This document shows positions 24,273-46,104 of a stretch of 51,216 nucleotides of DNA, piece by piece; within the stretch, counting starts at the first letter, position 1; each line of letters begins with the position of its first letter. The stretch comes from Eubacteriales bacterium (GTDB lineage: Bacteria; Bacillota; Clostridia; Lachnospirales; Lachnospiraceae): positions 42,680-93,895 of the forward strand of contig JAUNSV010000004.1 of the NCBI GenBank assembly GCA_030539055.1, read 5' to 3'. The translations under genes and the position numbers were made by a program. The notes under the pieces were generated by a model. That model was given only the letters and a program-made list of their open reading frames with translations. It was not told the DNA's origin and did no database searches.

Positions 24273-24809
24273 TTAATAATTTACATTTCTTTTTTCAAAA
24301 TAGCTCATTGGGTGTTCACAGCAAGGGCACATCATTGGTGCTTTTGGTCCTATATGAATGTATCCACAATTTCTGCAAATCCAAATTGTATCTTTCTCTC
24401 CTTGGAATACTATTTCATCATTTGTATTTTGTAATAATTTTAAATATCTCTCTTCGTGATGCTTTTCAATATCGCCTACCATTCTGAATTTTGCTGCAAG
24501 CTCTTTGAATCCTTCCTCATCTGCTTCCTTAGCCATTCTTTTATACATATCTGTCCATTCATAATTTTCACCAGAAGCTGCTTCTTTTAAATTGGCTTTT
24601 GTATCTCCTATACCACCTAATTCTTTGAACCACATTTTAGCATGCTCTTTTTCATTGCCTGCTGTTTCTTCAAAAAAACTTGCAATTTGCTCATAACCTT
24701 CTTTTTTTGCTACAGATGCAAAATAAGTATATTTATTTCTTGCTTGAGATTCTCCAGCAAAAGCATCTTGTAAATTTTTTTCTGTTTTTGTTCCTTGGTA
24801 CTTTGACAT
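24273..24809 (-). CDS. rbr: Rubrerythrin
   Basis: The 178-residue non-haem iron protein reduces hydrogen peroxide in anaerobes. The four-helix domain shows the diiron ligand segments with [20 protein letters not shown] and [10 protein letters not shown]. The C-terminal rubredoxin domain has CRNCGY and CPCCEHP. It lies just downstream of a Fur/PerR-family gene, a pairing typical of oxidative stress control. The ATG follows AAGGAG. Confidence 0.96.
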
Positions 24810-24848
24810 TTTTTTGTTCTCCTTTTGTTTTAAAAATTTTTTTGTAAG

Positions 24849-24870
24849 ACTTTTATATTGATATAAAAGT
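24849..24870. promoter_or_regulatory. Palindrome between the Fur-family gene and rubrerythrin
   Basis: A perfect 22-base palindrome (ACTTTTATAT-TG-ATATAAAAGT) lies in the 74-base gap. It has no following U-run, so it is more likely an operator or mRNA-processing hairpin than a terminator. Confidence 0.5.
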
Positions 24871-24883
24871 AATACATATAAAT

Positions 24884-25264
24884 TTAATTATTTAAGCAAT
24901 TATTACAAATACCATATACGATTAAATCGTGTGAATGAACTTTGGACTTGAAATTTTCTTCTATCAATTTGTCCATTGATGCAAATTGTGCATTAATATT
25001 CAAATCAATTATCTTGCCACATTGTTTGCATACAAAATGATGATGCTCTTTTCCTATTGGTTCAAAATGATCTGCACCATCTACAAATGATAATTTTTTT
25101 ACAAATCCATTTTCAACTAGTAAATTTAAATTTCTGTATACTGTGGCTAGAGAAATATTAGAGTCCTCTTTTTTGACTTTTTCATACACTTGATCTACTG
25201 TTGGATGGTCGAAAGAGTTTTTTATAACATTTGTTACTATTTCTCTTTGTCTTGAATATTTCAT
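24884..25264 (-). CDS. Fur-family metalloregulator (PerR/Fur-like)
   Basis: This 126-residue protein has the winged-helix DNA-binding half ([24 protein letters not shown]) and the metal-binding half. That half carries [12 protein letters not shown], with the structural zinc CxxC, and the second pair CNNC near the C-terminus. The Fur-like DNA box directly over its start site suggests autoregulation. The adjacent rubrerythrin gene suggests a peroxide-sensing PerR role, but the box matches the Fur consensus better. I leave the symbol blank. Confidence 0.9.
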
Positions 25265-25342: not shown

Positions 25343-26656
25343 TTAATAACCTCTTGCTTGTTTTGCTCTTGTAGCATAAGTGGAAGCTGGATATTCGCCT
25401 ATTATTTTATCAAAAAGTGCATTTCCCTCTTCTGTTCTGCCATTTCTTTGATATAATCTGCCCAAAAGGAACATATATTCTGGTTCTGCTGGGTTGATTT
25501 GAATAGCTAATAAATAGCATTGCTCTGCTTTGTCAACTTTTCCACCATTCCAATTTTGAGTGCCAAGCTCACATATTTTTGGTGCACCAAGACCCTCTAT
25601 GTATGATTTGCATCTATTTAATAATTCTATTAATGTATCATCAACAACTGCTTCCTTATCTAAATTAACATACAGCTCAGCTGCATCAGATATTCTCCCT
25701 GCATCATAATAATTTATAATATTATTTAATGTTGTATATTGAGTTGTAAAATTTGCATCCTTTTCTTCAAAAGCTTTTAATTTTTGTGAAGCATCTTTTA
25801 ATGATTCATTTATAGATGTATTTTCTTTAGTAAGCTCCAGTATTGTTTTATTTTGTTCATCAACTTTTTCTGCAAATTTTATTGCTTCTTTTTTTACACT
25901 AGTGTAATCGCTCCCTTTTGAACTAGGATTTATAACACTGGTTATAAATATTATTCCAATAATAAAACCACCTATAACAGACATAATAATTTGATTTGTA
26001 GAAAGTTTTACTACTTCCTTTGGCAAAATAACATCATCTGTTTTCATTTGTCTTAAAGAAAAAACTTTTTCATTGATTGAATTTTCTAATTCTTTTTTTC
26101 CTGTTTTGCTTTTTACTATATCAAACAAATATAAAGCTCTATCATTATATTTATCTATTCTCAATAATTTTACCAAAGTATTGCCAGCTTTTTGATATAA
26201 TTCATTTTTTACTTGCAACAAAGCTAACAATAAATAAGCTTTTACATAATTTTTATTGACACTTACTACTTTATATAAATGTTGCATTGCTAAGTCTTCT
26301 CTGCCAATTTGTGCTTCTTGCAAAGCTTGGTTAAATTTTGTTAAAGAGTCATGCAATTCATTTAATTTTTCTTTTTCTTTTTCAGATTCTTTTAAATACT
26401 TAAATGCTGGATTTTTATTTTCATCACTTAAGAAACCCGTAGAAATAATCCATTGAACATAAGCATCGCCTATCTCTCCTATTTCATAAAAAATTAGGCC
26501 TAAAAGATTTCTTGCATTAATATGATATTTATTATACCGAAGTGCTTTTTTTAAATACTTCGTAGCATTAGTAAAATCATTAATGTTTGCTCTCTCTAAG
26601 CCAAAATTATAATATGTATTAGCTATTTGAATGAAATTATTTTTATTCTCTTTCAT
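25343..26656 (-). CDS. Membrane-anchored TPR protein
   Basis: The 437-residue protein has TPR helices on both sides of a single membrane span. The N-terminal TPR region (about 1-200) includes YYNFGLERANINDF and YLKKALRYNKYHINARNLLG. The span is near 222-245 (IIMSVIGGFIIGIIF). A coiled-coil of about 45 residues follows, then C-terminal TPRs (YLLAIQINPAEPEYMFLLGRLY). It looks like a scaffold contacting partners in the cytoplasm and outside. It is the last gene of the cassette with the ExbB-like channel and DUF2149 protein. Confidence 0.8.
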   Translation of the reverse strand: MKENKNNFIQIANTYYNFGLERANINDFTNATKYLKKALRYNKYHINARNLLGLIFYEIGEIGDAYVQWIISTGFLSDENKNPAFKYLKESEKEKEKLNELHDSLTKFNQALQEAQIGREDLAMQHLYKVVSVNKNYVKAYLLLALLQVKNELYQKAGNTLVKLLRIDKYNDRALYLFDIVKSKTGKKELENSINEKVFSLRQMKTDDVILPKEVVKLSTNQIIMSVIGGFIIGIIFITSVINPSSKGSDYTSVKKEAIKFAEKVDEQNKTILELTKENTSINESLKDASQKLKAFEEKDANFTTQYTTLNNIINYYDAGRISDAAELYVNLDKEAVVDDTLIELLNRCKSYIEGLGAPKICELGTQNWNGGKVDKAEQCYLLAIQINPAEPEYMFLLGRLYQRNGRTEEGNALFDKIIGEYPASTYATRAKQARGY

Positions 26657-26659
26657 TTT

Positions 26660-26806
26660 TTATATATTCTCTTTAACAATCTCTTTCATAAGCATAATAT
26701 TTATATCTTTCATATCTGTTAGATCCATATCTTCTATTTCTTTTTGTATATTTGCTATTTCAATAGAGGGTTTAAATTTTTTTATTTCTTTATTAAAATC
26801 TATCAT
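26660..26806 (-). CDS. Small acidic/helical protein, 48 residues
   Basis: A short frame begins at ATG 26806, seven bases behind a perfect AAGGAGG, and ends at 26660, four bases before the TPR gene start. It encodes a charged helical peptide beginning MIDFNKEIKKFKPSIEI and ending MKEIVKENI, with no membrane span. The ribosome-binding site and exact fit between two genes argue that it is real. I do not recognise it; it is likely a fourth part of the channel cassette. Confidence 0.7.
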   Translation of the reverse strand: MIDFNKEIKKFKPSIEIANIQKEIEDMDLTDMKDINIMLMKEIVKENI

Positions 26807-26820
26807 TTTTAATCCTCCTT

Positions 26821-27153
26821 TTAATCCATAATAACATAAGTCTTGCCTGTTTTTGAATCTGTATATACTGTGCCAGATTTTTCATAACTGTTCTGTGCAT
26901 CTTTTGCATTTGTATCTGAATCTTTTAACATATCAAATTCAATCTCTTGCATTTCACTTTGAGATACTTCTGTCATTGTACTTGAACCTTTTGATGATTG
27001 AATATCTATTTTCCAATTTACAACTAAGGCTAGCATTATACCTACAGCGAGTACTAGCATAGCATCGGACAAATTTGATAATCCATCCATAGGATTAATA
27101 TCATCTATAGATATTTCATTCACTCTTCTACTTCCTAATTTATTATTTAACAT
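26821..27153 (-). CDS. DUF2149-type membrane protein, ExbD/TolR/MotB-like
   Basis: The product is 110 residues from ATG 27153, which follows AGAGGA; the frame is open from 27180 but those codons overlap the channel gene more deeply. One membrane span (about 29-46) is preceded by INPMDGLSNLSD and reads DAMLVLAVGIML. This fits my memory of the DUF2149 family, usually found beside MotA/TolQ/ExbB channels. The Asp30 at the span's start lines up with the ion-carrying aspartate of ExbD (DVMLVLL), TolR and MotB. The remaining 60 residues are extracytoplasmic. The start overlaps the channel gene by 11 bases. Confidence 0.75.
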   Translation of the reverse strand: MLNNKLGSRRVNEISIDDINPMDGLSNLSDAMLVLAVGIMLALVVNWKIDIQSSKGSSTMTEVSQSEMQEIEFDMLKDSDTNAKDAQNSYEKSGTVYTDSKTGKTYVIMD

Positions 27154-27778
27154 AATTTGTTCCTCTTTTAGCATTCTCACTCTCTACTAATGCTTCCATT
27201 AAAACATTCATTATAGACATATCATGTGTGTACCATCTTCTTCTAATTGCAGAAATAACTATTGCTACAACAGCACAAGATAAACCTAAAATTGTAGTAT
27301 CAAAAGCTGTTAATAAAGACTGTGATAAAATTTCTGTATTACCTTGACCAAGCGCTATGATTCCTGGACCAAGTGGTATTAAGGTACCTAGTAATCCAAA
27401 AGATGGACCTAGTTTTGCTAATAAGTCTGATTTTTTTATTTTTGTATCTAGTTTCAATTTATATTTTTCTAGGAGTGCTATTGCCAAAGTTTCTCTCATT
27501 TGATTAGATAATTCTTTATTATCTGATATTTCTAGTAATGTATCCTTTTGCAATTTTAAAAGTTTTGCTTTATATATTAATACTTCTGGTGGCAATTCTT
27601 CTTTTCTTATATCATTTACTAATTTAGATAATTTAATATTTAAATATTTTCTTTGTAATACTTCTGCTATTAGATCCCCTATCATTATTATTGTAAATAT
27701 TACGAATAATAATAATATAAAAATTACAGGTTGTTCAAACGACTTAGCAATTTGTCGCATAATATCATTCATTTGCAT
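27143..27778 (-). CDS. MotA/TolQ/ExbB-family proton channel protein
   Basis: The 211-residue protein has an N-terminal span (about 17-40), a cytoplasmic helical region, and the paired C-terminal spans of the MotA_ExbB domain: KLGPSFGLLGTLIPLGPG and LLTAFDTTILGLSCAVVAIV. In ExbB/TolQ/MotA complexes this subunit surrounds a dimer of ExbD/TolR/MotB and converts ion flow to motion. The neighbouring DUF2149 gene would supply that partner. No flagellar or TonB genes are present here, and Gram-positive bacteria lack an outer membrane, so the purpose differs from Ton or Tol. Confidence 0.88.
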   Translation of the reverse strand: MQMNDIMRQIAKSFEQPVIFILLLFVIFTIIMIGDLIAEVLQRKYLNIKLSKLVNDIRKEELPPEVLIYKAKLLKLQKDTLLEISDNKELSNQMRETLAIALLEKYKLKLDTKIKKSDLLAKLGPSFGLLGTLIPLGPGIIALGQGNTEILSQSLLTAFDTTILGLSCAVVAIVISAIRRRWYTHDMSIMNVLMEALVESENAKRGTNYVK

Positions 27779-27797
27779 GTATGTTTTTCCTTTTTAA

Positions 27798-28514
27798 TTA
27801 TATATTTTTTTCTTTTTTCATATGAATCTGTGAAGCAAAAGCTATCATTCTTATTATAAATGAAATTAACAAAATACCAATACTTCCTAAAACAAGCATA
27901 TTGACACTAGAACTTGAGTAGCTTGTATTATCTATACCAAAGCCACCTTTGGTATCTATTTCAAATATTTTCTTTCCACCATTTGAACCGCCTTTATTCA
28001 CATAATCCAAAATAGCAGTCGGAGTGTTCTCTTCATCATCATCTTGATTATCATTTTCATTTGTTTCTTCATTTTGATTAACAGTTTCTTCTATATTTTC
28101 TTCTGTTTCATTTTGTAATCCTGTATTTAACTCTGTAGCATTATTTGTCCCTTGATTAGAAGTGATTTGATTTGTATTTCCACTTCCCAATGCTCCTGCT
28201 CCTCCTCCAGTGCTTGCACTTTGTCCATTAGTAGCATCTGAAGAATCATCTGTTGTTGTAGACCCTCCACCACTTCCACTTCCACCACCACCAGTAGCTC
28301 TGTACCTTGGAGATGTGCCATCGGAGCCATCCTTTTCTACAACTGTTCCACCAAAAGTATGAACCTTAGTTTTTTTAGCTTCGCTCTCTTTTGGTTGCAC
28401 AATAACATTTGCTGCATCTGTCGGAGGATTTACTTCTACATCACTCGCAAAAACATTAAATGAAAAAAATGAATATAATATTATGCAAAAAATTGTTTTT
28501 TTTAATATTTTCAT
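27798..28514 (-). CDS. Secreted Gly/Ser/Asn-rich protein with C-terminal membrane anchor
   Basis: The 238-residue protein has a signal peptide (about 1-23, ending VFA-S). Low-complexity stretches rich in Gly, Ser and Thr (about 73-115) and then acidic Asn/Glu/Asp (about 125-165) follow. A membrane span at about 203-222 ends in a short basic tail (HMKKEKNI). It would be an extracytoplasmic flexible protein tethered to the membrane. It directly precedes the channel gene, so it may be the part moved by the motor or a wall contact. No known domain is recognised. Confidence 0.65.
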   Translation of the reverse strand: MKILKKTIFCIILYSFFSFNVFASDVEVNPPTDAANVIVQPKESEAKKTKVHTFGGTVVEKDGSDGTSPRYRATGGGGSGSGGGSTTTDDSSDATNGQSASTGGGAGALGSGNTNQITSNQGTNNATELNTGLQNETEENIEETVNQNEETNENDNQDDDEENTPTAILDYVNKGGSNGGKKIFEIDTKGGFGIDNTSYSSSSVNMLVLGSIGILLISFIIRMIAFASQIHMKKEKNI

Positions 28515-32309: not shown

Positions 32310-33740
32310 TTATTCTAAGTCTTCGACCTCAGGTTCTAAATCCGTATCTTTATCATTTTGATAATCATAAGAATCTGCGTCTCTATTTGACTCTCTCCTT
32401 TTAATAAAACTATAGTCATCATCATTGTCGTTATCATTATCTTCATAATCTCTATCAAAAGGTTCATCTTCATAATCGAATTTATTGCTTTTACCTTTTT
32501 TTGGCATATCATCAAATTCATCATCATAATTTTCATGGTCATCATAAATTGATTTATTTTTATTATGAGATTTGTTTGTTATAATAAGAGATATTAATAA
32601 TATAATAACTAAAAGTCCTAAAACTGCTATGACTATAAGCATAATTTTATATTTTTGAGTGATTGTGTTGTTTTCATTTTTCAAGTCATTGTTTTCATTT
32701 GTAAGATTATTTACTTCCATAGTCATTGGTGATTCAAAATATCTTTGCAATGTTTCATTCTTGTTGTCATAACAATAATAACCTATATCACCATTTTGAG
32801 CACGACCATATACTATATAATACTCAATATCACTATCTGTTGTGCTACCAGATAATAACCAAGCATCTGTTTGAACTCCATTTGATACCAATGCACTTTT
32901 TACATATCCTTTTGGAATTTGAGCATCCTCTGGGAATTGCATTACAGTAATATACATTGCTTTTGATGCGAGTCTTGTTCCATCTATATTTGATACAGTT
33001 TGTGGGCTAACTCCTGTTTCAAGTTTTTTTACATTGATTGTGTATGTTCTTTTTGTAATATTATCTGCTGCAGTAATTGTTATTTCTACTTTATTATCTC
33101 CAGTAGATAGTGATTTGTTGCCTGTAAGAGCTACTACGGAATCTGCATCCTCTGTTATGGCAGTTATTGGCAATTCTTCTACATTTGATTGAACTTCTAC
33201 AGAGTATTCTAAATTATCAGATGAAAACTCTGGTGTTAATATACCAGAAGAAACTTCTAATGATTTTAATTTTGAATTATTTGAAGAAGTGTTGCTTGGT
33301 TTTACATTAAGAGTTGATGTGCCTAATTTAGTTATTTCTACCAATTGATCATTCACATCATATACTTCTTGACTTTGAATAGATAAAGTATGTTTGCCAG
33401 CAACTAAAGTATTGAATTTTAATTCATACTCCAATATGCTTGATGATACGCCTTGACCTTTTCCCTGAACTCTTATCATACCAGCAGCACCTTGTGCATC
33501 CTTTGCTGGCACAAATTCCAAAGCATTTTGATCATATACAACTGTAATATCTGCTCTTGATAAACGAACCCCTGTTGCTTTTACTTTTAACATTACATTT
33601 ATTGTCTTACCTCTTGTAATAGTTAAATCCGAAAACTCAATTTTTGCTGAACCAGCAGCAAAAGAATTGAATGCAAAAACAATAGATAAAGAGAGTGTTG
33701 CACAAATACTCAACAATATTTTCTTTATTTTCTTACTCAT
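32310..33740 (-). CDS. Cohesin-like/cadherin-like surface protein with membrane anchor and acidic tail
   Basis: The 476-residue protein has a signal peptide (about 1-28). A cohesin-type beta-sandwich occupies about 30-148 (KIEFSDLTITRGKTINVMLK). A cadherin-like beta-1 domain follows at about 155-240 (KLKSLEVSSGILTPEFSSD), then a further domain, a coiled segment, and a membrane span near 367-388. About 85 very acidic Asp/Glu/Asn-rich residues form the cytoplasmic tail. The cadherin-like domain is shared with the glucosaminidase encoded just upstream. It probably displays or receives wall proteins. No dockerin is seen in the window. Confidence 0.75.
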   Translation of the reverse strand: MSKKIKKILLSICATLSLSIVFAFNSFAAGSAKIEFSDLTITRGKTINVMLKVKATGVRLSRADITVVYDQNALEFVPAKDAQGAAGMIRVQGKGQGVSSSILEYELKFNTLVAGKHTLSIQSQEVYDVNDQLVEITKLGTSTLNVKPSNTSSNNSKLKSLEVSSGILTPEFSSDNLEYSVEVQSNVEELPITAITEDADSVVALTGNKSLSTGDNKVEITITAADNITKRTYTINVKKLETGVSPQTVSNIDGTRLASKAMYITVMQFPEDAQIPKGYVKSALVSNGVQTDAWLLSGSTTDSDIEYYIVYGRAQNGDIGYYCYDNKNETLQRYFESPMTMEVNNLTNENNDLKNENNTITQKYKIMLIVIAVLGLLVIILLISLIITNKSHNKNKSIYDDHENYDDEFDDMPKKGKSNKFDYEDEPFDRDYEDNDNDNDDDYSFIKRRESNRDADSYDYQNDKDTDLEPEVEDLE

Positions 33741-33749
33741 ATCTCCTCC

Positions 33750-35810
33750 TTATTCACCAGGCCCTTTATTCGTGGAAACAGATGAATTGTTAATAATATT
33801 ATTTATTATATTTTGATTTGTTGGAGGCCCTTCAATAATTGTAGAGCTTCCAATATCTGTAGGTACTATGATATCATTTGTTATTATAGGAACTTGTGGT
33901 ACAGAAATTATGTTTGAATTATTATTTGTAGTATTTATTCCTACATCTACCTCACTCATATTTCCTATATAACCTTGCCTTGTAATATTTATTGTGTAAT
34001 AGCGTTGATCTTTATTTTCTGCTACAACTAGTATATGAACTTTATTTAATGTAGCTTGCAAACTTATTGTGCCTATACCTGCAATTGCTGCTTTTTTGTC
34101 TAAAAGTGTGGCATTTACTACTACGCTTGATACATTGGTTGGCACAATCAATGAGTATTCTTGTGTATCCATATTGAATGTTGGAGTAAGTATATATCCA
34201 CTAACACCAAGAGATTTTAATTTATTATTTGGAGAACCATCTTTTGTAGGATATTCAACTATTGTACTTGGCATATTATTATAAATTGGAATTTTGAACT
34301 CATGCGAAAATGATTTAACTGTATCATCATATGCTTGTGATAATATTGCTCCCTCGCTAGCTCCACCAGACACATTTGTCATATATTGATGTTTGAACAT
34401 ATTGTCGCCTTGCACATTCCATTTTTTTAAATAAAATGTATCTTGACCTTTTGATACATATCCTGTGGAATAATAATCTGCTGCACCATAAATTGCTTTT
34501 TCTTTTGTATTCCAAGGTCTACCAAAAGTACCCTCTGTTGCAGCATACAATAAACCATTTTCAATTGCACTATATCCACTTCCTGCAAATGCACCTATAT
34601 TTATATAATTATAATTACCTGGAAATTTTTTATTTGTTCCTGTAATAGATTCTGATTTTCCTTCTTTTCCTTGCTCTTGAAATATCATTGATACAAAAGC
34701 ATAAGGATTTATATTTGCTTGTATGCAAGCATTTAATATCACATCTACATAATGATATTGACCTTGAGGCAAATATGTAAAAGTGTTGCCATCACTAGAT
34801 AAAACATTTTGAGATATTACTCCAGGTGATATAATTTGATTTGGAGAATTAGTAATATTTGCACCTGGTCCAATTACTACACTACTATAACCTGTGATTT
34901 CGTTGTCTCTCTCTCCATAGGGGCTTAACCCAGTTGGTGCACCACCTATTATTATAGAGCCAACTTGATTTTGGTCTATAATAGGTGTAGGAGAAATATT
35001 TGTTATATTGTTTATTATATTATTTGAATTGTTATCTGCTATATTATATGACAATCCCTCTGCATTTATATATGAATCAAGAAATGTCCCCTTAACCATT
35101 TGTAGTAAACCAGCTCTAGTTTGAATAAGTGAATTGTATGTTTGCTTTTCGAATTGAAAAATATGAACTTCATTTAAAAAATTTCTTGGGTCCAAATAAT
35201 ATTCTGTTATTTCTTTTGATGCTGCAACCCATGAAGCACCATCAAAGCTTGGCCAGGTTGATGTATTCCAATCATATTTTCCTAAGTCTGTAGACTTGTG
35301 CGATGATATTGCATTTGATCTTACAAGTGTTCTTGTGCCAGATAATTCTTCATTTACTACTTGTGAAAAATCCATATTTATTTTTTGTGCTTTAAAAACC
35401 CAATTAGGAAAACTTTGATGAAGCTCCCTTAAAAATATCTTATAATCCTCTGGAAAGCCCTCATTTGATAATTCATTTTCAAAAGTTTGGTCTAATACAT
35501 AAGCTTGCATTACTCTAACAAAATCTTCTCTTATGTAAGCATTTTTATTTGATAAAAGAAAGCTGTACCACTTATGTCCACTAGTATCATTTTGCGAACC
35601 TGTGATTGATATTCTATTACCTGCTGTTAATTTTCCTATTATAGAATATGATGTACCTGGACCAGAGCGAATATTTACATCTGTTGCATTCACTATTGCA
35701 TAATTTTGTGCATACACTTTATTGGGGCTTGATAGTACGCTAAAAAATGTACACAAAATAAATATGTACATACCATATATTATAAACTTTTTTTTGGAAC
35801 TTTTTGTCAT
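33750..35810 (-). CDS. Secreted endo-beta-N-acetylglucosaminidase with SH3b and cadherin-like domains
   Basis: The 686-residue protein has a signal peptide, then an SH3b domain (NVNIRSGPGTSYSIIG pattern, about 40-98). The N-terminal part of a LytD-like glucosaminidase follows (WVAASKEITEYYLDPRNFLNE). About 100 Asn-rich low-complexity residues lie within the catalytic domain region before its second part (VSMIFQEQGKEG, with candidate catalytic Glu, and NYNYINIGA). Near 545-630 comes a cadherin-like beta-1 domain. It should cut peptidoglycan during growth or separation. No ribosome-binding site precedes the ATG, and the terminator of groESL ends seven bases before it. Confidence 0.85.
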   Translation of the reverse strand: MTKSSKKKFIIYGMYIFILCTFFSVLSSPNKVYAQNYAIVNATDVNIRSGPGTSYSIIGKLTAGNRISITGSQNDTSGHKWYSFLLSNKNAYIREDFVRVMQAYVLDQTFENELSNEGFPEDYKIFLRELHQSFPNWVFKAQKINMDFSQVVNEELSGTRTLVRSNAISSHKSTDLGKYDWNTSTWPSFDGASWVAASKEITEYYLDPRNFLNEVHIFQFEKQTYNSLIQTRAGLLQMVKGTFLDSYINAEGLSYNIADNNSNNIINNITNISPTPIIDQNQVGSIIIGGAPTGLSPYGERDNEITGYSSVVIGPGANITNSPNQIISPGVISQNVLSSDGNTFTYLPQGQYHYVDVILNACIQANINPYAFVSMIFQEQGKEGKSESITGTNKKFPGNYNYINIGAFAGSGYSAIENGLLYAATEGTFGRPWNTKEKAIYGAADYYSTGYVSKGQDTFYLKKWNVQGDNMFKHQYMTNVSGGASEGAILSQAYDDTVKSFSHEFKIPIYNNMPSTIVEYPTKDGSPNNKLKSLGVSGYILTPTFNMDTQEYSLIVPTNVSSVVVNATLLDKKAAIAGIGTISLQATLNKVHILVVAENKDQRYYTINITRQGYIGNMSEVDVGINTTNNNSNIISVPQVPIITNDIIVPTDIGSSTIIEGPPTNQNIINNIINNSSVSTNKGPGE

Positions 35811-41503: not shown

Positions 41504-42748
41504 TTATTTTCTACTTTTTCTTATAGCAAGTATTCTTTGCATTTCATTATACACTATCATATATCCCTCATCAACACCCATACCAGGTTTCGCTAATATT
41601 TGTGTTGGTTGTGTAGCCATAGCACATTCAGTGCATACTTCTGCAGATCTATTTGTTTCATTGCAAGTACCACCTTGATAAGCACCCATACCATGCTTTT
41701 TGCAATACAACACTGCTTCTATTGTATTATTTATACCACCAAGGTCTGGAGTTTTAATTTGTACCATATGACCTGCTTTGTTATCTGTGAAAAATATTAT
41801 ATCTTCTAAAGTATTGCACCACTCATCTGCAACTAGTTCAACATTTATATTCCTAGAATCAAGCTCTTTTCTTAAATCCCTTAATGCTTCCATTTGACCC
41901 TGTCTTTCTTCTACATCCATAGGTCCCTCTATTCTTAAGTGGAAAGGTTTTGCAGCATCTTCTAATGTTTTTAAATAATCTGCCATTTCTTTATAATTGT
42001 TTGGTCCAAAAGCTTGACCTATAGTACCATAGCAATCAATATGTAGTATTGGATTATAATTTTTATCTTTTCTTTTTGTTTGTATACGATTACTTAACCA
42101 TTTTACATATTCCAATAATTTTTCGCCTTTAGTACCTAATTTCGTTTCTACATTATTTATAAGTGCGTGAGGTAGTACTTGTGCTTCTTTTATTATCATT
42201 TTATCTGAATTATCGTATCTGTCATCACCTGATTGAGTGAAAATATCTATAGCTTTATCTGACACTTCGCAACCATACTCTGTGGCTACTACTTCACATA
42301 TTAATTTGTGATTAGCTTTTGCAACTGCATCCAAGACAGCTTGTGTTACTCCATATCTTATTGCTGTATGAAGTCTTTTACCATCAACTTGTATTGACTC
42401 AATCATTTTAGCTAGATCTCTAAAGTTATTTGCTTCTTTACCTACTAATTCTGGTTTAATATATTTTTCAATTACAGGTATAAAATCTTCAGCGAGGAAT
42501 AATGGATCTCTTCCACCAGCTCCAGAGTATTGCACAGCTGCACAATCTCCAAAAGCAATTTGACCATCTTCAAGTATAATTTGAACAGATATAGCCTCCC
42601 CTGCTTGTCTTATTTGAGTGAAGCCCTCTGTTACAGGGGACCCCTCATAAAAAGTACCATCATGACCTGCACCTTTTTTTATAGCTCTTTGATCATCAAA
42701 ATAAAAACCTGTACGACCTTTAGAACAAATTACATTTGTTATTTTCAT
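41504..42748 (-). CDS. mal: Methylaspartate ammonia-lyase
   Basis: The 414-residue enolase-superfamily enzyme removes ammonia from (2S,3S)-3-methylaspartate to give mesaconate. Catalytic residues match the Clostridium tetanomorphum enzyme with a one-residue shift: His194 (VLPHAL), metal ligands Asp238 (HIDCYG), Glu274 (RIEGP) and Asp308 (ADEW), and the base Lys332 (QIKTPDLGG). It follows the glutamate mutase genes, the usual order. Confidence 0.97.
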   Translation of the reverse strand: MKITNVICSKGRTGFYFDDQRAIKKGAGHDGTFYEGSPVTEGFTQIRQAGEAISVQIILEDGQIAFGDCAAVQYSGAGGRDPLFLAEDFIPVIEKYIKPELVGKEANNFRDLAKMIESIQVDGKRLHTAIRYGVTQAVLDAVAKANHKLICEVVATEYGCEVSDKAIDIFTQSGDDRYDNSDKMIIKEAQVLPHALINNVETKLGTKGEKLLEYVKWLSNRIQTKRKDKNYNPILHIDCYGTIGQAFGPNNYKEMADYLKTLEDAAKPFHLRIEGPMDVEERQGQMEALRDLRKELDSRNINVELVADEWCNTLEDIIFFTDNKAGHMVQIKTPDLGGINNTIEAVLYCKKHGMGAYQGGTCNETNRSAEVCTECAMATQPTQILAKPGMGVDEGYMIVYNEMQRILAIRKSRK

Positions 42749-42778
42749 TTTTTATATTCTCCTTTTTTATTTTTAAAA

Positions 42779-44230
42779 TTAATTTGGGCGACCTACCAAA
42801 TGACCTTTTGATATAGCATATATATCATCAACTGTCATTTGAAATGATACTGGTCTATTTTCTACTTTTGATCTTTCAGCTAATTTGTTTTTATTAAACT
42901 CTTTTATTTCATTTGTAAATGGAATATTTCCAAACTCTAAATATCTTACAGCTCCATAGTTATCTCTAACTGGCATCATCTTTCCAGCATTTGCTTTTGC
43001 TGGAGCAAAAGGTACATCAATAAATCCAGCTTCAACTCCTTTTACACAACCTACAGCTGCATCTCCATTTCCAATTTCCAAGCATTTATCCAGTATGCAT
43101 CGTGTTTCTTGTTTTATTAATTCTTTTTCTTTATCTACTTCTAGACTCGCATATTTTTGATCTCTAAGCATAGTGATAACTTGCTTTGTGCATCTTAATC
43201 CCATAGCATTTGCTTCTTTTGTAGGTATACCAACTGCTTCGTGAGGTGTTTTTACAATTACTTTTGTAGCTTTAGAAAGAGCAGCAACAGCAGAACCCCA
43301 AGATATAACACCAAATGCTTGAGCTTCATCTTCTGGGAAACCACCCATCCATTGATGAAGAACAGTAGTAACATTAATATCTTTAAACCCTAATTTAATT
43401 AAATACTCATTTGTGATTTCTTCAAGAGCTCTAATAGAAGCTACATCTTGAATTAAATTACCACATTGACCATAACCAACAGTAATATTTTTAACACCTT
43501 GAGTTGCAGCAAGAATTGATTCTGTTACAGCTACAGCGTGCGACATAGATGGAGGCACAAGTGTTCCAGTTAAAGGGCCGAAAGGTTCACGGTTAATTGT
43601 GCAACCATTTTCTTCATATATACCAGTCAAACGATCTATATATTGCCAATCAATAATAGTTTTTTCCATAGGAATATTTTTTGCATAAGGAAGATTATAA
43701 GAAACTCCACCACCCTCAAATGATGTAAAACCACCAGCAAGTGTAATTTCGCAAAGTAACCTTGCATCTGGAGTTCCATGACGAACTTGAATAGGAGTAT
43801 TTAATGCTTCTATAACTTTTCTGCAACCTTTTACTCCATGATTTACAGCTGGGAAACCATTCAATAAAGACCTACCCTCTTTCATAGATGCATTGATTCC
43901 ATTCTCTGCTTCTTTAAAAGCACATAGTCTTGTATAAGCATCTATAGTAGATGGAAGTAAATCAGCTTTACCAAATTCTTCCAAGTGTTTTAATAAAACA
44001 ATATGCTCATCAATAAGTGCAACACCAGCTCTTGGTTGAATTAAAGTTTGCCCCTCTTCTTTTGCTTTGTTCAATTTGTCTGTAAATCGTTTGTCGCCTG
44101 TGATACTTTTTTGATATTGAAAACCATCTTCTAAATTTTCTACATCCTTACCTGTAGGCCACATTGTTAAAACATCTTTTCTGATTTTATCAAACTCTTC
44201 TCTTTCTATTTTTTTATTTTGTAATCCCAT
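42779..44230 (-). CDS. glmE: Glutamate mutase epsilon (catalytic) subunit
   Basis: The 483-residue TIM-barrel subunit rearranges glutamate to 3-methylaspartate with adenosylcobalamin bound by GlmS. The length equals that of the clostridial enzyme. Conserved stretches include [36 protein letters not shown] and [12 protein letters not shown]. It overlaps the glmL 3' end by 17 bases. Confidence 0.97.
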
Positions 44231-45617
44231 CTTTTATTAACTCCTTTTTTAATATTCTTAATGCAATATTTGGATATTGTTTGCTTAGTAAACCCATAGA
44301 AGCTATAATATATTTTCTGTCAACATACACTTCGCACTCTTTTGGTCTTAAACTAAATGGATCTGTTTGTTTGTATGTAGCATAAGATGCTATTTCTACA
44401 GATTTTTTGGTATGAATTAATGAACCACCAGTTAACACCATCGTTCTTACATTTTCTAAATCTTTACCATATTGCATATAACTTATACCCATACAAGTAT
44501 AATATTCTTTTAATTCTCCTGAATGTCTTTTTAGGGCAACTTTTGATGCCACTTTAGCTAATGCAATATCTAATTTTTCATCTTCTTCATTTTGTGGCAC
44601 AAGGTCTGTATTCTTTGAAAACTCTTCGATTCTGTTTGTTACAAATTCTTCACTTAGTCCAGATATTTCACTTATTTCATTATCATTTGAAGCATTTAAT
44701 ATTCCATGAATAGAATATCTCATTCCTATATCGCCCTCAACTGTCCGTTTGCAAAAAGGTTCCTTTAATCCTTTTAATACAGTTGAGCCTTTTGTTGGGT
44801 CTCCCTTAGCTATAGAATAAATATCTGTAGTAGCACCACCAACATCAATAGCTACTAATTCACCAAGACCTGTTTCTTCTTTTGTGCCTAAAGAAAGTAA
44901 TTTTATTCCCTCCATAACAGCAAGTGGTGTAGGAAGTACAACACCTGTTATTTCATCTTCTGCTTTATCTAAACCTTTTGCTTTAACTATATTTCTTATA
45001 AAAACATTTCGTATGCACTCTTGCACTTCTTCCACTTTTAATTCGCCAAGACTAGGCATAACATTTTCGCATTTGAAAGTTTCATATCCAGCTGTGTTTA
45101 AAATATCATATGCTTCATCGGTTGCTCTTCTATTGCCTGCAATAATAATAGGGAATAATTTATTATCCTTCTTATTTGCGGATAAAATTTTTGCACTATT
45201 TATTACACACTCCGAATTGCCACCGTCTGTACCACCAGCTAATAAAAAAATATCTGGCTCTAATTTAAATATTTCTTCAACATCATATTTAGTAAGCCCA
45301 TAAGAATATGTTTTAATTATTTTTGCACCAGCTCCTAGTGATGCTCTTTTTGCTGCTTCAGCAGTAAGCGATGGCACTAAACCAGACACAAGCATCCTTA
45401 AACCACCAGCTGCCGAAGAACAAGCAATGCACTTATTAAAAGAAAACTTACCTATCTTTTCTTCCAAAATAGATATTGCATTAGTTAAACCTATTCTTAC
45501 ATCTTTATCTATTGTGGTCCAGCTTTGCTCATGACCTAAAATTATTTCTTTTTCTATATCCACCAATGTGATTTTGGTATAAGTGGAACCAAAATCAACA
45601 AGCAAGATATTATTCAT
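44214..45617 (-). CDS. glmL: Glutamate mutase reactivating factor GlmL/MutL
   Basis: The 467-residue ASKHA-fold ATPase is thought to exchange damaged cobalamin on glutamate mutase. The phosphate-1 motif is [15 protein letters not shown], with AGGTDGGN and the phosphate-2 motif [13 protein letters not shown]. It lies between glmS and glmE as in Clostridium cochlearium and C. tetanomorphum. Confidence 0.95.
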
Positions 45618-45634
45618 CTTATTAACGCTCCAAT

Positions 45635-46045
45635 TTACATATTTAAATCTTCTTTTAATGCTTTCACTGTTATCATAGGGTCAGTTCCTGGACCATACAC
45701 TCTATCAAAACCCATCGCTTTAAATCTTTTTTCTACTTCATCAAATGGTTGTTTACCTATAACAATATTTCCACCTACATAAATTAAAATTCCTTTTAAA
45801 CCTGCTTCATCACATTTTTCTCTAAAACCACGACAGTCAAGTTCACCTTGCCCATAAAGTGATGATACAATAATAACATCAGCTTTTGATTCTATAGCTG
45901 CTTCAATAAATTCTTCTTGAGAAACTTGAACACCCAAGTTAGTTACATCAAAGCCGTTTTCGGAAAATACATGATTCAAAATTTGATTTCCAACAGCATG
46001 TGCATCTGTTCCAATAACTCCAAGAACCATTCTTTTCTTAGACAT
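45635..46045 (-). CDS. glmS: Glutamate mutase sigma (cobalamin-binding) subunit
   Basis: This small B12-binding subunit has the DxHxxG motif as TDAHAVG, with His16 the cobalt ligand, plus [12 protein letters not shown] and the loop [10 protein letters not shown]. The frame opens at 46081, but ATG 46045 follows GAGAGGAG and gives 136 residues, matching the usual length of about 137. Note that this gene is unrelated to glucosamine synthase. It heads the glutamate-fermentation operon. Confidence 0.96.
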
Positions 46046-46104
46046 ATCAATTATACTCCTCTCAAAATTAATATTTGTCATTTATTCCAAAATATGTTAT
46101 ATAT

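Follow-up and report, generated by a model that had tools for sequence, protein, structure and literature searches.

A tail-anchored surface protein, an ExbB-type channel and a DUF2149 protein as a candidate ion-driven motor in a Lachnospiraceae genome

Related systems and the locus

Among the closest described relatives of the system treated here are the Hmu proteins of Bacteroidota (HmuS-HmuT-HmuU-HmuV) and the ExbB-ExbD-TonB system. The locus in question lies in a 51,216-nucleotide stretch (hereafter the window) of contig JAUNSV010000004.1 of a Lachnospiraceae genome (assembly GCA_030539055.1; 1.5 Mb in 83 contigs). It comprises three adjoining genes that encode a tail-anchored surface protein (P1), a MotA/TolQ/ExbB-type channel, and a DUF2149 protein. 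We consider, with a probability of roughly 0.55, that the three form a small motor of the ExbBD/TolQR/MotAB type, driven by protons (or sodium) and acting directly on the surface protein. The comparison with the known systems is as follows.

Hmu: In the excerpted account of PMC10434189, HmuU is an ExbB-like channel and HmuV is a DUF2149 protein, and the cassette resembles Hmu in having this pair. HmuS is exported and has N- and C-terminal transmembrane helices, according to passages of PMC12583661 and PMC13227078. Tables and lists of published work place DUF2149 in the hmu operon of Porphyromonas, Prevotella or Bacteroides, and in the plasmid loci from Bacteroidota the pair is likewise HmuU/HmuV. 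In contrast, the window's genus (13 sampled genomes) yielded no CobN/HmuS (PF02514) and no Omp85 (0/13 each), the partner is a Gly-rich tether, and two HmuS tails lack the tail motif described below.

ExbB-ExbD-TonB: Common to both are the channel fold with its threonines, an aspartate in a single-span partner, and a further, anchored protein that has a long tether and, on the outer side of its transmembrane helix, a strand-like motif at a distance of about 12 residues or more. Unlike this system, the cassette has DUF2149 in place of ExbD, and its anchor is C-terminal whereas that of TonB is N-terminal. An ExbD profile found no match in the 13 genus genomes, and neither did Omp85, in line with the statement of the preliminary description of this DNA that the task is not Ton or Tol; TonB and its receptors were not searched for.

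CobN-DUF2162-channel-DUF2149 clusters: The same pair occurs in Firmicutes-type loci and on a Trichlorobacter plasmid, together with an exported CobN that has a C-terminal transmembrane helix and the motif. The chelatase domain of these clusters, on the other hand, is the one not found in the window's genus.

Eubacterium oxidoreducens (locus L100): The channel belongs to the sister group of the genus channels, and effector, channel and DUF2149 stand in the same order as in the window. In contrast to the window, this locus lies inside a siderophore/B12-type ABC operon and its effector is an immunoglobulin-like (Ig-like) protein.

The linkage of DUF2149 and channel genes is already in print. In Pseudomonas aeruginosa the DUF2149 gene PA1925 follows PA1924, which a table lists as an exbD proton channel gene (PMC9431628), and an excerpt on methanogens calls DUF2149 'linked to biopolymer transport protein TolQ' (PMC9425974). 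In the portions of the open-access literature consulted, no proposal of DUF2149 as a motor peg was found. According to a passage of a 2022 review, Gram-positives have annotated members of the ExbB family, and it is yet to be tested whether these can function there without ExbD and, if so, how (PMC9389320). One answer offered here is that DUF2149 would be the peg and that the load would be a tail-anchored exported protein recognised through a short strand. The role of ExbB-family channels in Gram-positives lacking ExbD thus becomes testable, which bears on how such ion-driven motors can function without an outer membrane. If the answer is true, HmuS-type heme dechelation would be powered by a membrane gradient, and single-membrane bacteria would gain a means of mechanical work on their own surface.

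The preliminary description reported five tightly packed, co-directional genes after radA, and both their coordinates and their minus-strand orientation were verified (window positions 28514-25343; radA was identified via TIGR00416). The five genes are as follows.

28514-27798, minus strand: P1, 238 residues, an open reading frame (ORF) with a signal peptide, a low-complexity Gly/Ser/Glu-rich extracytoplasmic tether, the motif, a C-terminal transmembrane helix and a short basic cytoplasmic tail
27778-27143, minus strand: MotA/TolQ/ExbB-type channel, 211 residues, identified by PF01618, an AlphaFold2 model and PDB profile matches
27153-26821, minus strand: DUF2149 protein (PF09919), 110 residues from ATG, or 119 residues from GTG at 27180
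26806-26660, minus strand: 48-residue ORF without a significant Pfam match, the first gene of a separate 48-residue/TPR pair outside the motor
26656-25343, minus strand: TPR protein with TPR Pfam matches and a hydrophobic span near the middle (by eye), outside the motor

By the coordinates, 10 bases separate radA from P1, 19 separate P1 from the channel gene, 14 separate the DUF2149 gene from the 48-residue ORF and 3 separate the latter from the TPR gene, and the channel and DUF2149 genes overlap by 11. A Shine-Dalgarno-like sequence was seen by eye ahead of the ATG that gives the 110-residue product. A promoter and terminator scan gave no useful excess: 34 promoter-like sites were counted where 28.5 were expected, and 2 terminator-like sites where 1.4 were expected.

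A survey of gene neighbourhoods divides these five genes into two units. The order P1-channel-DUF2149 is kept in all 10 other genus loci examined, at differing chromosomal places, and the Gly-rich, secreted and anchored protein thus belongs to the unit, as had been supposed. What follows DUF2149 in these loci is variable and includes an ftsH-like gene, an opposite-strand rpsT-like gene, other genes, or the end of the contig (names by eye). The 48-residue and TPR genes do not travel with the core. The TPR gene is present in 13/13 genus genomes and adjoins the motor in the window genome only, which does not support it as the scaffold that the preliminary description had assigned to a five-part machine. 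In all 12 other genus genomes it is sited away from the motor, with a relative of the 48-residue protein directly upstream. Eight of these relatives were read off first, and a profile built from those eight and the window's protein recovered the ones in L167, L168, L171 and L177. Because the pair is separate in the other 12 genomes, the cassette is counted as three genes, P1, channel and DUF2149, and the 48-residue/TPR pair as its neighbour in the window genome only, as sampled. The 48- to 56-residue protein and the TPR protein form a two-gene unit of their own throughout the genus (13/13 genomes).

The channel and its DUF2149 partner

The assignment of the first membrane protein to the MotA/TolQ/ExbB type is upheld by a PF01618 match (E = 7.2e-9; 35.9 bits against a curated cut-off of 22.9) and by PDB profile matches to MotA/ExbB. 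The AlphaFold2 model has a mean predicted local distance difference test score (pLDDT) of 92, and its top Foldseek matches are ExbB/TolQ chains with a probability of 1.00 and template-modelling scores up to ~0.68. In profile alignment to Escherichia coli ExbB, channel T132 falls on T148 and T162 on T181, the two residues named essential in the excerpted text of PMC12905483. T132 is threonine in 42/42 DUF2149-linked channels and T162 in 41/42. The modelled fold is thus that of ExbB/TolQ, and threonine occupies both of the essential positions. A near-invariant Asp160 (41/42) stands beside T162 in the DUF2149-linked channels, and the aligned E. coli ExbB has leucine there.

The DUF2149 protein matches PF09919 with an E value of 6.7e-12 (46 bits against a curated cut-off of 27.1). 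Its single span, DAMLVLAVGIML, carries Asp30 (numbering of the 110-residue form), as had been read in the sequence. The aspartate lies near the start of the one transmembrane helix, as it does in ExbD/TolR. Conservation of Asp30 across homologues, on which the preliminary description had staked its reading beforehand, is almost complete: 41 of 42 DUF2149 sequences have aspartate and one has glutamate, and aspartate is also found in 3/3 plasmid copies. The figures for the 42 sequences come from loci found by Pfam profile, and one alignment (A3) was excluded because its scan had selected for that motif.

The gene pairing of the channel and DUF2149 is well supported. Outside the genus, a same-strand channel adjoins DUF2149 in 33/34 phylum loci, with L055 as the exception. 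In a wider, redundant set a channel stands beside 92/97 DUF2149 ORFs, and four of the five misses are cases in which the ORF filter hid the channel. No natural channel-DUF2149 fusion was seen among the ORFs examined. Within the genus, the 11/13 genomes that have DUF2149 are also those with a PF01618 channel, a single one each and always inside the cassette; no second such channel was detected in the 13 genomes. Taken together, the channel and DUF2149 probably form one ion-driven unit. The earlier suggestion that DUF2149 is the stator-peg partner of the channel stands as to the near-constant gene neighbour and the retained aspartate, and falls short as to profile, by which the protein is not ExbD.

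In the AlphaFold2 model, which covers a 108-residue stretch, the DUF2149 protein has a helix at residues 19-44, a disordered linker of ~50 residues, and a C-terminal hairpin (93-96/103-106) with the sequence GTVYTDSKTGKTYVIM. Beyond the helix the hairpin is the only element, and no ExbD-like globular domain is seen in this low-confidence part of the model. The profile check that had been proposed gave the PF09919 match and no match to ExbD/TolR (PF02472). DUF2149 was also considered as a true homologue of ExbD, and this was left without support from Pfam, the PDB profile search, Foldseek or HHalign.

The anchored partners, their tail motif and distribution

The topology of P1 was assigned by eye and by hydropathy. 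No Pfam family was found at E <= 5 for the P1 of the window, and none for the 510-residue relative of L020; the relatives in the other genus loci range from 283 to 510 residues. The motif GKKIFEI lies about 20 residues before the C-terminal transmembrane helix, with a spacing of 19-21 residues across the genus.

Outside the genus the position of P1 is taken by other proteins. An exported protein with a C-terminal transmembrane helix stands beside the pair in 89/106 channel-bearing loci, by a loose hydropathy criterion that picked some wrong genes, and the other 17 have no such neighbour. The partner types are P1 in the window's genus, CobN-like chelatases (PF02514 in 6/6 scanned), and Ig-like proteins (Big_2 in 4/5 scanned: L061, L085, L106 and L100; not L078). 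The CobN-like effector of L054 (1951-7017, minus strand) has three Big_2-type stretches and bridges the chelatase and Ig-like types. The scanned neighbours include DUF2162 in L057, cobalt ECF transporter genes in L085 (PF09819, CbiQ), and FecCD/ABC/Peripla_BP_2 in L100. The Trichlorobacter lovleyi plasmid cluster consists of a TonB receptor, DUF2162, channel, DUF2149, CobN, ExbB, ExbD, and TonB.

A strand-like motif, V/I-Y/F-E-I/L, just outside the C-terminal anchor is often common to P1, CobN-like and Ig-like partners. It occurs within 50 residues outside the C-terminal transmembrane helix in 33/52 adjacent tail-anchored proteins, and shuffled segments predict 1.25. By class, it is found in 9/11 genus P1 proteins, 6/6 CobN-like proteins and 18/35 others, against 0.40, 0.09 and 0.76 predicted by shuffling. 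Near the anchor its density is 33 in 2600 residues, compared with 3 in 25353 over the remainder of these proteins. An inclusive census finds the motif in 46/89 neighbours, 12-24 residues away from the transmembrane helix. Of 11 additional stretches fetched, two had been covered before and one showed no DUF2149 ORF with the profile applied; the eight further loci that remained yielded 5 motif matches, two near-variants (RIYQM and HIIEV), and one locus without a tail-anchored neighbour. The Trichlorobacter CobN has the near-form GFEM.

By the same kind of measure, the D-box of E. coli TonB begins 12 residues beyond the TonB transmembrane helix. The spacing of the tail motif is near this value, with no sequence identity between the two, and an excerpt of PMC12215075 describes the D-box as pairing as a strand with ExbD. 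From the motif, the spacing, and this strand pairing, the motif is read as a putative docking strand with the anchor topology mirrored. In the effectors of L112, L119, L121, L130, L144 and L156, M-x-x-D-(A/S)-x-A-L-D before the transmembrane helix replaces the YE motif and is perhaps a diverged docking segment. A common tail domain across the effector classes was also sought, and a profile from one class did not significantly recover the other two; the claim is therefore limited to the short motif.

The DUF2149 profile matches 11/99 sampled relatives, all of them in the window's genus (11/13), and the two members without it are 75% and 81% complete genomes. None was found in 48 other sampled genomes of the same family (0/48). 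On a wider scale the profile matches 4/342 genomes of the window's class and 32/398 genomes of the phylum (own genome included and one match below cut-off in each), as well as 14/50 genomes of one other class (centre included). The channel tree places the genus in one clade (100/99), and its sister is E. oxidoreducens with two uncultured relatives (100/98). In L100 (E. oxidoreducens) the pair follows the FecCD-ABC-Peripla_BP_2 operon; L097 is similar by eye, and L107 has a carboxylase-like gene upstream. Since DUF2149 was not found in the other sampled genomes of the family, the simplest reading of these sequences is that the cassette was gained by transfer, with a change of its load. A phage collection gave no match to the channel, and a phage origin is thus without support. 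FecCD-type permeases match in 13/13 genus genomes, one of them only below cut-off. In the same tree L115, a contig of a metagenome-assembled genome (MAG) labelled Parabacteroides, groups with Anaerovorax and is probably misbinned.

Proposed mechanism and alternative explanations

In the proposed motor the channel would make the ring and DUF2149 would supply the peg, with Asp30 facing the channel threonines; this placement is suggested by the conservation and position of the aspartate and by the near-constant gene pairing. The C-terminal beta-hairpin of DUF2149, on its flexible extramembrane linker, would grip the P1 strand KKIFEI ~20 residues outside the transmembrane helix, in the manner of ExbD holding the TonB D-box. 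The grip is suggested by the shared motif and its spacing, and the docking as drawn is tentative. Ion flow would turn or tilt the peg, thereby pulling or twisting P1; the low-complexity tether of P1, which spans roughly 180-440 residues across the genus, would reach into the wall. Docking and force are what we infer, and the evidence leans modestly towards the tail-anchored protein as the direct load of the pair. In bacteria outside this genus, the load of the pair would be a CobN/HmuS-like chelatase or an Ig-like surface protein, encoded near metal, cobalt or corrinoid uptake genes. Because the partners elsewhere adjoin such genes, the ancestral task was likely the working of a surface protein in tetrapyrrole or metal scavenging. 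The preliminary description had the channel, the DUF2149 pairing and the anchored protein right, and missed the connection with uptake loci, CobN/Hmu among them, as well as the shared motif outside the anchor.

On a broader scale, DUF2149 may possibly define a separate class of motor. Its minimal peg, an Asp helix with a flexible linker and a beta-hairpin, would grip a D-box-like strand beside the C-terminal anchor of exchangeable surface proteins, and would do so without TonB, ExbD or an outer membrane. The class would extend to single-membrane bacteria, Bacteroidota (HmuUV working HmuS), and perhaps methanogens, and in the window's genus the load would have been swapped to a Gly-rich, wall-spanning tether. 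This wider view is put forward with reserve.

Several observations weigh against the proposed motor. The confidence of the DUF2149 model is low outside the helix (mean pLDDT 63, hairpin ~75), and Foldseek gave it no PDB match at E <= 0.001. None of the 42 DUF2149 members matches PF02472, and the PDB profile search gave no ExbD match. HHalign of DUF2149 with ExbD/TolR reached a probability of 5%, and three unrelated controls reached 0.1, 0.3 and 9%; the weak alignment sets the DUF2149 aspartate exactly on the TolR aspartate. The motif expression, [AVILMQ][YF][ED][ILMV], was written after the tails had been inspected and is thus post hoc. The motif is missing in 43/89 census neighbours, some of which are wrongly picked genes, and in the two Bacteroidota HmuS tails noted above, and in a Clostridiales/Bacillota MAG effector group it is present only in diverged form. 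Of the eight further loci, seven belong to a class from which training sequences had been drawn. In a comparison of near and far proteins with a looser pattern, 34/52 and 3/13 matched (Fisher p 0.011), and two of the three far hits are module genes. The failure of the tail profiles to reach significance across classes belongs here as well. Moreover, nothing recognisable beside the genus cassettes (10 loci) suggests metal uptake.

P1 may instead be a passive wall anchor, like the wall-binding part of MotB, for a motor of channel and DUF2149 whose true load is encoded elsewhere. The absence of a known domain in P1 and its low-complexity tether agree with such a role, as do two exported proteins that stand ahead of clpC-radA-P1 in 7/10 other genus loci. 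However, in other lineages the gene at this position codes for a CobN-like chelatase or for an Ig-like protein, anchored in the same way and often carrying the motif; such proteins resemble a driven partner more than a peg in the wall, which makes the passive anchor unlikely.

Another explanation is that the pair is a gated ion channel or a sensor, in which DUF2149 is a plug opened by tension on the anchored surface protein and no work is done outside. The data give pairing and a conserved pore rather than force, and the low-confidence DUF2149 model without an ExbD-like globular domain would suit a plug. This explanation is nevertheless quite improbable, given the recurrent partner type, in which extended extracellular portions go with a strand motif at a spacing close to that of the D-box, and the relatives in uptake operons, where energising is the better fit.

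The Gram-negative pair (HmuU/HmuV; Pseudomonas PA1924/PA1925) could also energise a TonB-dependent receptor, with the Gram-positive copies being relics or unrelated in role. According to a figure legend in PMC12583661, HmuV and HmuU power HmuR, and a table in PMC9431628 assigns the energy support of a receptor to PA1924, whose neighbour PA1925 is the DUF2149 gene. On the contrary, the T. lovleyi plasmid cluster has a separate and complete ExbB-ExbD-TonB set beside the DUF2149 pair, and energising TonB therefore need not be the task of the pair in that case. Relics are unlikely in view of the retention of DUF2149 in 32 of the 398 phylum genomes and 11 of the 13 of the genus, with the channel adjoining in 33 of 34 loci, and a receptor energiser as the general explanation is very improbable. 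A five-gene machine with a TPR scaffold, to which the tight spacing in the window had pointed, is scarcely credible and was rejected on the gene neighbourhood in the other 12 genus genomes, where the 48-residue/TPR pair lies apart from the motor.

A few further genes of the window deserve mention. The two exported proteins before clpC-radA-P1 lie at 32310-35810 (minus strand), one with SH3_3 and cadherin-like domains and the other with a cadherin-like domain and a transmembrane helix with an acidic tail; they are the counterparts of those in the 7/10 genus loci. Directly downstream of the TPR gene, at 24273-25264 (minus strand), are a rubrerythrin and a Fur/PerR-family regulator, the latter recognised by sub-cut-off matches. 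Methylaspartate mutase S, GlmL, mutase E and methylaspartate ammonia-lyase are encoded at 41504-46081 (minus strand) and constitute a cobalamin-dependent glutamate fermentation set; the organism therefore probably needs corrinoid.

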